Below, one piece after another: positions 55,511-59,785 of a DNA stretch of 64,000 nucleotides. Origin of the DNA: Oricola nitratireducens. GTDB lineage: Bacteria > Pseudomonadota > Alphaproteobacteria > Rhizobiales > Rhizobiaceae. The first letter of the stretch is position 1. The number at the start of each line of letters is the position of its first letter. A program made the position numbers and the translations under genes. The stretch spans positions 1 through 64,000 of the forward strand of contig NZ_JACZCS010000032.1 of assembly GCF_014904745.1 (NCBI RefSeq), in the 5' to 3' direction. Under the pieces are notes generated by a model. That model was not told where the DNA came from, did not search any database, and saw nothing but the letters and a program-made list of their open reading frames with translations.

Positions 55511-56599
55511 CTACGACCGGAAATGCTTGGAAAGCTTCAGGCCCTGGGCTTGGTAGTTCGACTTGAGATCGGCGCCATAGAGCCGGTCGGGGCGCTTTTC
55601 CATGCGCTCATAGACGAGGCGGCCGACCGTCTGACCGTCTTCGAGCACGAAAGGCACCTCGTGGCTGCGCACCTCGAGGACCGCGCGGCTGCCCGAACCA
55701 CCGGCGGCCGTATGGCCGAAGCCGGGATCAAAGAAACCGGCATAATGGACGCGGAACTCGCCGACGAGCGGATCGAACGGCGTCATCTCGGCGGCATAGT
55801 CCGGCGGCACATGCACCGCCTCGCGCGAGACGAGGATATAGAACTCGTCGGGATCGAGGATCAGTTCCTTGCGGCCGCGCACATGCAGCGGCTCCCAGAA
55901 ATCGAGCACCTCAAGGGCGGCGCGCTTGTCGACATCGACGACCGCCGTGTGATGCTTGCCGCGATAACCGACCAGGCCATTCTCGTCGCCGGACAGGTCG
56001 ACGGATACGGCGATGCCGGCATGAGTGATGATCGGATCGTCGCCGGCGACCAGCGTTGCAGAGGCGTGCAGCGCGGCAAGATCGTCGGCGCCGAGGATCG
56101 TGTCGGCGGAGCGGAAGCGGACCTGCGACAGCCGCGACCCGGTGCGCACGACAATCGGGAAGGTGCGCGGGCTCACTTCCAGATAGAGCGGGCCATGGTA
56201 GCCGGCCGGGATCTTGTCGAACTCGATACCGTGATCGGTCATGACGCGCGTGAAGATGTCGAGCCGGCCGGTCGAACTTTTCGGATTGGCCGAGGCCGCG
56301 ATTCCGGCGGGCAGCGCCAGCGATTCCAGCAGCGGCACGATGTAGACGCAGCCGGTTTCGAGCACCGCGCCCGGCGCGAGATCGATCTCGTGCAGCTTCA
56401 ACTGCTCGAGCTTGTCGACCACGGTGCAGCCCTTGCCGGGCATGAAGCTGGCGCGCACACGATAGGCTTTGGCGCCAAGCCGCAGGTCGAGGCTTGCCGG
56501 CTGAATCTGGTCGGCATCGAGCGGGCGCTCGGCGCGGAGCGCTTTCGCCTCGAACAAGGCGGCAATGGCGCTGTCGGGCAGGATGCCCCCTGTTGTCAC
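55511..56599 (-). CDS. dcd: 2'-deoxycytidine 5'-triphosphate deaminase (double-length form)
   Basis: The 362-residue protein belongs to the dCTP deaminase/dUTPase family but is about twice the length of E. coli Dcd. Features: LDADQIQPASLDLRLGAKAYR near the N-terminus, ASANPKSSTGRLDIFTRVMTDHG, FDKIPAGYHGPLYLEV, and a second half ending with GSGSRAVLEVRSHEVPFVLEDGQ. It converts dCTP to dUTP for thymidylate synthesis. This long form is usual in rhizobia. It is divergent from metZ. Confidence 0.88.
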   Translation of the reverse strand: MTTGGILPDSAIAALFEAKALRAERPLDADQIQPASLDLRLGAKAYRVRASFMPGKGCTVVDKLEQLKLHEIDLAPGAVLETGCVYIVPLLESLALPAGIAASANPKSSTGRLDIFTRVMTDHGIEFDKIPAGYHGPLYLEVSPRTFPIVVRTGSRLSQVRFRSADTILGADDLAALHASATLVAGDDPIITHAGIAVSVDLSGDENGLVGYRGKHHTAVVDVDKRAALEVLDFWEPLHVRGRKELILDPDEFYILVSREAVHVPPDYAAEMTPFDPLVGEFRVHYAGFFDPGFGHTAAGGSGSRAVLEVRSHEVPFVLEDGQTVGRLVYERMEKRPDRLYGADLKSNYQAQGLKLSKHFRS

Positions 56600-56646: not shown

Positions 56647-56675
56647 TTGACGCAAGCGCCCCGAAGCCTTATGGA
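56647..56675 (+). promoter_or_regulatory. candidate metZ promoter
   Basis: TTGACG (56647-56652) and TATGGA (56670-56675) are separated by 17 bp. The predicted transcription start is about 56682, just before the riboswitch, which supports the assignment. Confidence 0.5.
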
Positions 56676-56685
56676 CAGCTTTCGT

Positions 56686-56740
56686 TCGTGGTGATTTGGC
56701 CGGTCGGCTTGCAGCCACGTAAAACAACTCGCTAAAAGGC
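56686..56740 (+). promoter_or_regulatory. SAM-II riboswitch upstream of metZ
   Basis: The 55-nt stretch contains the SAM-II consensus in order: P1 5' strand CGTGG (56687-56691), GTGATTTGGCC, a GGCTTGCAG block, P1 3' strand CCACG (56715-56719), the spacer GTAAAACAACTC, and the pseudoknot strand GCTAAAAGG (56731-56739). P1 pairs perfectly. SAM-II aptamers are typical of alphaproteobacterial metA/metZ genes; high S-adenosylmethionine should turn metZ off. Confidence 0.88.
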
Positions 56741-56767
56741 CGCGCGACACGTCAAGGGACGTGGGTC

Positions 56768-56801
56768 AACCGGTTTTGCGGCGACGCGGAACCGGTTTTT
56801 T
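56768..56801 (+). terminator. intrinsic terminator between SAM-II aptamer and metZ
   Basis: AACCGGTTTTGCG (56768-56780) pairs over 13 bp, with two G-T pairs, with CGCGGAACCGGTT (56785-56797) around a GCGA tetraloop, followed by six T residues (56796-56801). The metZ ribosome site GGAGA and ATG 56817 follow at once. Premature termination before metZ is therefore likely under SAM excess. Confidence 0.8.
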
Positions 56802-56816
56802 ATTTGGAGACAGCTC

Positions 56817-58007
56817 ATGGGTTCTGATTGGTCGAAATTCGGCGCCGCCACGCAGATGGTGCATGGCGGAACGTTGCGGTCGCAGTTCGGCGAGACATCG
56901 GAAGCCATGTTCCTGACGCAGGGCTTCGTCTACGACACGGCGGAAGCCGCAGAAGCCCGCTTCAAGGGTGACGAGGGCGGTTTTATCTATTCGCGCTACG
57001 CCAATCCCACCAACGAGATGTTCGAGCAGCGCATGTGCATGCTGGAAGGCGCCGAGGCCGCGCGCTCCACGGCCTCGGGCATGGCCGCCGTCGCCGCGGC
57101 GATCCTCTGCCAGGTGAAGGCCGGCGACCATGTCGTGGCGGCGCGCGCGCTGTTCGGCTCCTGCCGCTGGATCGTCGAGACCCTGCTGCCGCGCTACGGC
57201 GTGGAGACGACGCTGGTCGACGGCACGGACCCGGCCGCCTGGGAACAGGCGGTGAAAAAGAACACCAAGGTCCTGTTCTTCGAAAGCCCGACCAATCCGA
57301 CGCTGGAAGTGATCGACATCGAGCATGTCGTCGCGGTGGCGCGGAGCGTCGGCGCCAAGGTGGTGATCGACAATGTCTTCGCGACGCCGATCCTGCAGAA
57401 GCCGATGGAACTCGGCGTCGACATCGTCGTCTATTCGACCACCAAGCATATCGACGGACAGGGGCGCTGTCTCGGCGGCGTGGTGCTGGCAAGCGAGGAA
57501 TGGATCGACGAAAACCTGCATGACTATTACCGCCATACCGGCCCGTCGATGAGCCCGTTCAACGCATGGGTCATGCTGAAGGGGCTGGAGACGCTGCCGC
57601 TGCGCGTGCACGCGCAGACCGCGAATGCCGGGCGCATCGCCGATTTCCTGGCGACGCGGTCGGAGGTCAAGCACGTGATCTATCCGGGCCGGCCGGACCA
57701 CCCGCAGGCCAACATCATCCCGAAGCAGATGAAGGGCGGCTCGACGCTGGTGTGTTTCGAACTGAAGGGCGGCAAGTCCGAAGCCTTCGCCTTCGAGAAC
57801 GCGCTGAATATCGTCAAGATTTCCAACAATCTCGGCGACGCCAAGAGCCTGATCACCCATCCGGCGACGACAACGCACAAGAACCTCACCCCGGAAGCGC
57901 GTGCCGAACTCGGCATCACCGACGGCACGCTGCGCCTCTCGGTCGGACTGGAAGACGCGGACGACCTGCTCGACGATTTCGACCGGGCGCTGGCGAAGGC
58001 GGGCTGA
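56817..58007 (+). CDS. metZ: O-succinylhomoserine sulfhydrylase
   Basis: The 396-residue PLP enzyme makes homocysteine from O-succinylhomoserine and sulfide. Motifs of the Cys/Met-metabolism family: YSRYANPTNEMFEQRMC, TASGMAAVAAAILCQ, DNVFATPILQKPMELG, and the PLP lysine in STTKHIDGQG (about residue 210). The C-terminus NLGDAKSLITHPATTTH is typical of MetZ. Regulated by the SAM-II riboswitch. It ends one base before the convergent amidohydrolase stop. Confidence 0.94.
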   Translation: MGSDWSKFGAATQMVHGGTLRSQFGETSEAMFLTQGFVYDTAEAAEARFKGDEGGFIYSRYANPTNEMFEQRMCMLEGAEAARSTASGMAAVAAAILCQVKAGDHVVAARALFGSCRWIVETLLPRYGVETTLVDGTDPAAWEQAVKKNTKVLFFESPTNPTLEVIDIEHVVAVARSVGAKVVIDNVFATPILQKPMELGVDIVVYSTTKHIDGQGRCLGGVVLASEEWIDENLHDYYRHTGPSMSPFNAWVMLKGLETLPLRVHAQTANAGRIADFLATRSEVKHVIYPGRPDHPQANIIPKQMKGGSTLVCFELKGGKSEAFAFENALNIVKISNNLGDAKSLITHPATTTHKNLTPEARAELGITDGTLRLSVGLEDADDLLDDFDRALAKAG

Positions 58008-59168
58008 CTAGCCGCATTGCCCCCTTGCGATCTGTTCGAAGATCGCAAGGCCGGCCGGGATGATCTCGTCGGGAAAGTCGTAGTCCGGATTGTGCAGTTG
58101 CGGGTGGCCCTCGCCCGCGCCGAGCACGAAGAAGGCGGACGGGCAGACGCTGCCGAAGACACCGAAATCCTCCGACCAGCGGAACGGGCCGTCTATATCG
58201 GCGCAGGCGATACCGGCCTGCGCGCAGGCGTCGCGCACCATCGCTGTCGCGCCGGCATCGTTGAAACAGGCGGCGAAGCGCTCCGACGTCTCGATGTCGA
58301 TACCCAGTCCGGCCGCCTCTGCTGCGGCGACCGCCATGTCGCGCGCCGCCGTCATCAGCTTTTCCTGAAGCGCGTCCGTTCGCGATCGCAACGTCGCCAT
58401 GACCCGGGCCTCTCCGGGCGAGATGCCGAAAGCCGGTTCGCCCAGACGCGCATGCGACAGCGTCACCAGCGCATCGCCGGGCTCGATACCGAGCGTCTCG
58501 GGCAGTCGCGGGAGCCGGGTAACGAGGTCCGTCATCGCGGCCGCCGGGCTTCTGCCGTCCTCGGGATGGGCGGCATGCGACGTCCACCCGGTCAGGTGGA
58601 TCGTCATGCCTTCCGAGGCGAAGCACAAAGACCCTTCGCGGATGGCCGCCTGTCCAAGCTTCATGCCGGGCAGGTTGTGCAGACCGAAGGCGAAGTCGGG
58701 ACGGATGGACGCGAACCGCTCATCCTCGACGACCCCGCGCGCGCCGGCGCCGGTTTCCTCGGCGGGCTGGAAGAGCAGAACCACGCGGCCCCTGGCAGGG
58801 CGCCGGGCCTGCAGCCGCCTGGCGAGACCGCAGATGACCGCCATGTGGCCGTCATGACCGCACATGTGCCCCTTTCCTGCAATCCCGGAACGCCACGCGG
58901 GCGATCCGGTTTCGTGGATCGGAAGTGCGTCGAGCTCGCAGCGAAACAGGATCGCCGGGCCAGCTTCGCCGCTGTCGAATATGCCGACGACGCCGTGGCC
59001 GCCCAATCCGGTGACAATGTCGTCCGCATCGCAGTCGTGCAGCCACTGCGCCATGCGCGCCGCCGTTTCCTCCTCCTCGCCGGATATTTCCGGCGCACAA
59101 TGCAGGTTGCGCCGCAGCGCGGTCAATTCCGCGATAAGGGTCTCGTTGTCGTCCAAAACGCAGTCCAT
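58008..59168 (-). CDS. M20 family amidohydrolase
   Basis: The 386-residue protein is an M20D amidohydrolase: NLHCAPEISGEE near the N-terminus, ILFRCELDALPIHE, the metal site GHMCGHDGHMAV, FQPAEETGAGARG with the catalytic glutamate, TGWTSHAAHPEDG and the C-terminal LGAGEGHPQLHNPDYDFPD. Such enzymes remove acyl groups from N-acyl amino acids such as N-acetylcysteine. The substrate here is unknown. It is the second gene of an operon with the CDP-alcohol phosphatidyltransferase (11-bp gap); ATG 59168 is the likely start. Confidence 0.92.
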   Translation of the reverse strand: MDCVLDDNETLIAELTALRRNLHCAPEISGEEEETAARMAQWLHDCDADDIVTGLGGHGVVGIFDSGEAGPAILFRCELDALPIHETGSPAWRSGIAGKGHMCGHDGHMAVICGLARRLQARRPARGRVVLLFQPAEETGAGARGVVEDERFASIRPDFAFGLHNLPGMKLGQAAIREGSLCFASEGMTIHLTGWTSHAAHPEDGRSPAAAMTDLVTRLPRLPETLGIEPGDALVTLSHARLGEPAFGISPGEARVMATLRSRTDALQEKLMTAARDMAVAAAEAAGLGIDIETSERFAACFNDAGATAMVRDACAQAGIACADIDGPFRWSEDFGVFGSVCPSAFFVLGAGEGHPQLHNPDYDFPDEIIPAGLAIFEQIARGQCG

Positions 59169-59179
59169 TTCCGTCCGGT

Positions 59180-59785
59180 TCAGCGCAGAATGCGCGCGGT
59201 CGCCACAATGCGCGACAGAGCCGTATAAAGGCAAATCGCCGCAAAAACACAGGCCAGAACGGGAAACCAGCCGGGAAACAAACAGGCGAGAACGAAGACG
59301 GCGATCGTCTCGGTGGCTTCAGCGAGCCCGGTGGTGAAAAAGAAGGATTTCTCGCCGCGCTGGTCGGTCGACAGTCCGTGCTTCTCGGCCATGATCGCGA
59401 AGGCAAGGAAGCTCGCGCCATTGACGTAGAACGAAAAAACGAGAACCACCGCAGCGACCGCATTTGCAGCCGGATCGGCGAGTGCGAAGCCGACGGGAAT
59501 AGCGCCGTAGATCGCGAAATCGAGCACGATGTCGAGATAGCCGCCGAAATCGGTCTTGCCGTTGATGCGCGCGACCGCGCCGTCGAGACCGTCGGCGAGC
59601 CGGCTCGCCAGAAGGACGATCATGCCCGCCAAATAGACGTGCCAGGCGATCAGTCCGGCCGCCGCGACACCGAGCACCCATGCAAGCACGGTGATCGCGT
59701 TCGCCGAGACGCCCGTCCGCGCAATGGCGCGGGCCAAGCCGTTTATCGCCGGTTCGATCCTCGCGCGCACGGCGCCGTCAAGCAT
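59180..59785 (-). CDS. CDP-alcohol phosphatidyltransferase family protein
   Basis: The 201-residue integral membrane protein has the CDP-alcohol phosphotransferase motif in RLADGLDGAVARINGKTDFGGYLDIVLDF (D-G-x2-A-R-x8-G-x3-D-x3-D; residues about 62-90) and six predicted helices. It moves a CDP-linked group onto an alcohol to make a phospholipid or related lipid. The alcohol is unknown. The second ATG (59785) is chosen because GAGGGGAG is eight bases upstream; the first ATG (59791) leaves no spacing. Short compared with PgsA/PssA homologues but normal for the rhizobial form. Confidence 0.9.
   Translation of the reverse strand: MLDGAVRARIEPAINGLARAIARTGVSANAITVLAWVLGVAAAGLIAWHVYLAGMIVLLASRLADGLDGAVARINGKTDFGGYLDIVLDFAIYGAIPVGFALADPAANAVAAVVLVFSFYVNGASFLAFAIMAEKHGLSTDQRGEKSFFFTTGLAEATETIAVFVLACLFPGWFPVLACVFAAICLYTALSRIVATARILR

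Follow-up and report, generated by a model that had tools for sequence, protein, structure and literature searches.

The window, a 64,000-nt stretch of the Oricola nitratireducens genome, carries metZ, encoding an O-succinylhomoserine sulfhydrylase, on the plus strand behind a SAM-II riboswitch, an aptamer thus placed upstream of a methionine/SAM biosynthesis gene. MetZ scores over the cut-offs of two protein models, and the Oricola indica MetZ, retrieved by a search of named genomes, shares 92% identity with it. A divergent gene for a 2'-deoxycytidine 5'-triphosphate deaminase occupies the minus strand (55511–56599; NF005734, 622 bits), its start lying upstream of the metZ −35 box, 47 bases away. 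On the other side, an amidohydrolase gene (58008–59234, minus strand; TIGR01891, over its cut-off) converges on metZ; the two stop codons abut, leaving no room between the genes for a metZ terminator. The sole tRNA that ARAGORN finds in the window is a tRNA-Phe (GAA) at 1080–1154 on the minus strand. The metZ leader and gene comprise the following features:

56647–56675, plus strand: sigma-70-like promoter, TTGACG-17-TATGGA, read from the sequence
56678–56755, plus strand: SAM-II aptamer (SAM_alpha, RF00521), Rfam 75.8 bits, E 2.9e-15
56687–56692 with 56714–56719, plus strand: P1 stem, from the aptamer match and conservation in the genus
56701–56705 (CGGUC) with 56738–56742 (GGCCG), plus strand: P2 pseudoknot, assigned by analogy with the SAM-II consensus
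56729–56784, plus strand: predicted antiterminator, UCGCU (56729–56733) with GGCGA (56780–56784) and AAGGCCG (56736–56742) with CGGUUUU (56771–56777), from minimum free energy (MFE) folds, pair probabilities and a flip control
56748–56763, plus strand: small hairpin CACGTC/GACGTG in the antiterminator loop, from covariation in the genus
56768–56801, plus strand: intrinsic terminator of 13 bp with a GCGA loop and a U-tract at 56796–56801, from a pattern scan and folding
56806–56809, plus strand: metZ ribosome site GGAG, read from the sequence and invariant in the genus
56817–58007, plus strand: metZ, NF005696 740 bits (cut-off 675) and TIGR01325 568 bits (cut-off 510)

The promoter that an earlier note on this DNA had placed ahead of the aptamer is present, with the −35 box TTGACG (56647–56652) and TATGGA (56670–56675) separated by a 17-nt spacer and both boxes invariant in 6/6 congeneric leaders. 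TTGACG is also the top-scoring −35 element in 80 of 100 metZ leaders. A simple promoter pattern scan called 0 sites, passing over the TTGACG/TATGGA pair. Transcription probably starts at about 56682–56684. The aptamer, likewise recognized in the earlier note, covers positions 1–79 of the 79 in the RF00521 model, scores 75.8 bits against a gathering score of 36 and is the only riboswitch in the window over gathering scores. All six P1 pairs and all five P2 pseudoknot pairs are possible in 6/6 congeners, every one of them invariant, and the aptamer presumably binds SAM. SAM-II is present in 6/6 genomes of the genus, 284/297 of the family and 159/199 of the order.

Comparative counts draw on 184 loci, gathered by searching the genus, the family, the order and named genomes. 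Nineteen loci failed a string filter and were left out (one of them, L114, being a distant match); removal of 16 duplicates (10 metZ, 6 metA) from the 165 kept yielded 103 metZ, 35 metA and 11 other leaders. Antiterminator counts exclude 17 leaders lacking a −8 kcal/mol terminator (3 metZ, 10 metA, 4 other), and the truncated-fold flip control described below also excludes L037, for which the hairpin finder chose the wrong hairpin. The sample is non-random: the automatic loci are the best-scoring matches, 60 places were added among the family matches listed (58 with 78-nt matches, chosen in the hope of metZ) and 40 among the order matches listed. The 59 genus labels comprise 54 codes and five named or unplaced records, so a small number of genera may appear twice. 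Three congeners have leaders identical to those of L103, L104 (labelled as an Ahrensia MAG) and L105.

An intrinsic terminator sits between the aptamer and the start codon, the arrangement of a transcription-attenuating OFF riboswitch. Its hairpin (56768–56797) and T-run (56796–56801) match the description in the earlier note, a 13-bp, GCGA-capped stem with six Ts before the metZ ribosome site. The terminator fold reaches −21.2 kcal/mol (z −5.07), and 0/200 shuffles are equally stable. The pattern scan alone found one site where 1.0 was expected, which is not above chance, and the folding stability of the whole leader is unremarkable (z −0.78); the case for the terminator therefore rests on its local stability, position and conservation. 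Relatives, where the earlier note had proposed looking, keep it: a terminator of −8 kcal/mol or better precedes the start codon in 100 of the 103 distinct metZ leaders. GGAG begins 63 nt past the end of the pseudoknot strand (56742), outside the aptamer, and the translation-occluding architecture of the metX type, with the ribosome site inside the P2 pseudoknot, is absent from this leader. The terminator stem ends 8 nt ahead of GGAG, a proximity that would allow SAM-induced terminator folding to hinder the ribosome site on full-length messages in addition to stopping transcription, but the single fold that includes GGAG leaves it unpaired in the centroid (folds to 56804 end before it), and such dual control is very unlikely.

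With 56683 taken as its start, the RNA was folded to a series of 3' ends, the pseudoknot energy lying outside the model. At ends 56780–56790, the MFE fold includes P1 and the antiterminator, which has 12 pairs from 56784 on and encloses the small hairpin in its loop, and from end 56792 the terminator displaces it. The antiterminator reaches a mean pair probability of 0.96 at end 56784, and the terminator one of 0.98 at end 56796. Both in sequence and in these folds, the antiterminator strand overlaps the terminator 5' arm and an aptamer strand that the ligand would stabilize, the shared pairing that characterizes an attenuator. It covers the whole pseudoknot 3' strand (56738–56742), so that a SAM-bound aptamer would exclude the antiterminator.

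In short RNAs, the program favours a fold that lacks P1; with the pseudoknot energy left out, this makes the early SAM-free state uncertain. At full length, P1 plus antiterminator (−38.6 kcal/mol) lies 12.8 kcal/mol above the free fold with the terminator (−51.4 kcal/mol), and SAM-free read-through must therefore be kinetic. Dependence of read-through on timing is usual for such switches. A mimic of the SAM-bound state, with P1 held and pairing of 56730–56742 forbidden, lacks the antiterminator by construction; the terminator still forms in it from end 56792, and at ends 56780–56784 the bases just past the blocked strand pair weakly with the terminator arm.

What computation establishes is the set of parts, the way the competing strands overlap, their predicted folds and their conservation; binding of SAM, kinetics, and termination with its direction are what we infer. 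It is highly probable that the SAM-II riboswitch is an OFF switch for metZ that works by premature transcription termination, with an aptamer strand serving in the antiterminator. At low SAM, the aptamer 3' strand (56729–56742, GCUAAA and GGCCG) would pair with the terminator 5' arm and loop (56771–56784), and RNA polymerase would read into metZ. With SAM bound, the 3' strand would be locked in the P2 pseudoknot and the terminator 5' arm left free; the 13-bp terminator would form, transcription would stop near 56801 and a riboswitch RNA of ~120 nt would be released. The hairpin at 56748–56763 is expected to form in both states and to shorten the antiterminator loop.

This small hairpin, also picked out in the earlier note, is real and covaries in the genus, with 36/36 cells paired in the six congeneric metZ leaders and three pairs changed on both sides. 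The distance from GCUAAA to the terminator measures 36–37 nt in five of these six leaders (the sixth is misparsed) and at most 35 nt in 88 of the 94 metZ leaders from other genera.

The earlier note had located the switch elsewhere: CCACGT (56715–56720) would pair with ACGTGG (56759–56764), undo P1 and act as the switching element. The two strands are complementary, as it stated, and 33/36 cells (91.7%) are pairable across the six congeners, where the stem is complete in four and broken in L035 and L040. The covariation check it proposed reveals no both-sided changes in these six leaders. The pairing probability is 0.000 (rounded) at all 10 RNA ends tried, and forcing the stem costs 6.8, 13.3 and 13.7 kcal/mol relative to the free fold (ends 56786, 56803 and 56766, respectively). 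Among the 94 metZ leaders outside the genus, a 6-nt complement to the CCACGT P1 strand occurs in none, the longest complement spanning 3 nt or fewer in 68, 4 nt in 12 and 5 nt in 14. ACGTGG belongs mostly to the small hairpin, whose covariation can explain the partial conservation of the stem, and since the stem does not overlap the terminator, it could not by itself turn the terminator on or off. We therefore rejected this stem as a fold competing with P1, on its pairing probability, its two broken congeners and its want of compensatory change, and consider it extremely unlikely to be the switching element. What stands of that proposal is control by termination, backed by the conserved terminator and a published metZ precedent; 56759–56764 as the shared switching strand falls on both pairing and conservation. 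Its premise that SAM-II usually acts on translation fits α-proteobacteria poorly, terminators being the commonest predicted association in the account of PMC2258182.

For the antiterminator that we propose, all 12 pairs are invariant among the six congeners. The terminator 5' arm and loop are invariant there in 13/13 and 4/4 columns, whereas the 3' arm is invariant in only 7/13, a count that partly reflects the alignment of one-base deletions in L036–L038. Such asymmetry between the arms is not expected from selection on the terminator alone but is expected if the 5' arm has a second partner; judged from the alignment, the 5' arm seems to carry a second constraint.

Across the wider sample, the flip control compares each leader with the same hairpin reversed, its own complementarity kept, in RNAs truncated close to the terminator loop. 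In 88 of 99 metZ leaders, 8 or more bases from the 3' segment of the aptamer pair with the terminator arm, compared with 56 when flipped. Averaged by genus label, the real orientation is better in 51 of 59 and worse in three (p 2.9e-12, truncated folds); with a shuffled terminator arm, the fraction attaining 8 bases averages 0.54. Duplex energies are better than the flipped ones in 71/100 metZ leaders and, by genus label, better in 44 and worse in 14 of 59 (p 0.0001). For the bases preceding GCUAAA, 33 genus labels have a longer complement than in the flip and 12 a shorter one. Mononucleotide shuffles of the arm are beaten at 0.05 by 78/100 metZ leaders and 14/25 metA leaders.

A partner-swap control, in which the own partner beats those of other leaders in only 59/100, shows a weak effect that is attributed to the near-constant GGCC/CCGG core. 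The pair beside GCUAAA is C with G in 41/100 leaders and A with T in 16/100. Pair-level covariation looks strong on these raw counts but was rejected as proof of the antiterminator: on the tree the C-G to A-T change amounts to one independent event and is not significant; independent base-pair covariation for the antiterminator is thin. Its second element is unlocatable by pattern in 29/100 metZ leaders, and 6/100 have fewer than 5 antiterminator bases. At least 70% of the terminator pairs are retained in the full-length fold in 76/100 metZ leaders.

The same data bear on a constitutive terminator, which would set a low basal level or make a small RNA while SAM-II acts on RNA stability or translation. 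The strength of the terminator and its advantage at full length accord with such an arrangement, as do several observations described for Sinorhizobium meliloti (PMC9373788): no SAM effect is predicted for the terminator of its metA SAM-II, both leader RNAs and mRNAs have greater stability in rich medium, and in either medium there are far more leader RNAs than mRNAs. The position of the metZ ribosome site, outside the aptamer and beyond the terminator stem, makes direct occlusion by the pseudoknot impossible, however, and antiterminator pairing exceeds the flip control in the large majority of genus labels given above; we regard a constitutive terminator as unlikely and SAM-controlled termination as the better reading.

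The genome holds a second SAM-II on another contig (locus L001, positions 1400–1600 of contig C16, minus strand), ahead of a gene that passes the NCBIfam threshold for homoserine O-acetyltransferase MetA. The terminator of this leader reaches −17.8 kcal/mol, and its 5' arm can pair with the aptamer 3' strand. Terminators occur in 25/35 distinct metA leaders. The antiterminator is not established for metA, where 25/25 real against 21/25 flipped leaders reach the pairing threshold, six of 10 genus labels are better and three worse (p 0.51), and duplex energies are better than the flip in five labels and worse in five.

SAM-II leaders with terminators have been described before. Corbino 2005 noted putative intrinsic terminators after P2 in many SAM-II RNAs and proposed an OFF switch (PMC1273637). 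Barrick & Breaker 2007 predicted terminators for most SAM-II in α- and β-proteobacteria, experimental proof being absent at that time, and described the distal pseudoknot as the interface linked to them (PMC2258182). A 2014 survey placed SAM_alpha upstream of metY as its core target, and less often of other methionine genes, metA among them, in the Rhizobiales and the Rhodobacterales (PMC4239095). Whole-riboswitch covariation has been derived for other classes, SAM-II not being among those named in the account of PMC13273304.

The nearest published counterpart is the S. meliloti metZ SAM-II, which, by its published description, shares the aptamer class, the gene and a predicted SAM-dependent terminator with the leader here. 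Scheuer 2022 predicted SAM-induced termination for it and found that an RNA of ~100 nt rises and metZ mRNA falls with SAM, and also on metK titration (PMC9373788). Activity of the S. meliloti metZ promoter is likewise lower in rich medium, so the loss of mRNA there is not all due to termination, and for metA that report could not predict a SAM-II-driven antiterminator (PMC9373788). The Agrobacterium metA/SAM-II motif (PMC1273637) is alike in P1, the P2 pseudoknot, a promoter just before P1, a terminator after P2 and OFF logic; the gene assayed was metA rather than metZ, and the main text does not use the word antiterminator. OFF riboswitches of the terminator/antiterminator kind (PMC2258182) resemble our scheme in that ligand disrupts an antiterminator holding terminator bases, but the antiterminator strand here would be the pseudoknot 3' strand in place of a P1 strand. 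The metX SAM-II differs in occluding its ribosome site directly, the site lying inside P2 (PMC10907184), a feature absent from the metZ leader. Termination control here is thus not new, with precedent in relatives; the additions are the proposed antiterminator strands, a flip control spanning the order and the hairpin that covaries in the genus.

The leader is very probably an ordinary but well-formed SAM-II transcription attenuator for metZ. With this analysis it joins an already published class of regulation, and the proposed switch shifts to a strand that is specific and testable. We suggest, tentatively and with the balance somewhat against it, that SAM-II metZ leaders across the order might share one platform, in which the pseudoknot strand has its complement in the 5' arm of the terminator, as do, in many leaders, the UCGC bases ahead of GCUAAA; a single strand would then serve ligand binding, the pseudoknot and antitermination, and the same may hold for metA leaders that have a terminator. 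If the antiterminator is shared across the order, it would offer a simple rule separating transcription-acting from translation-acting SAM-II, and one could ask whether the unexplained metA terminators are also under SAM control.
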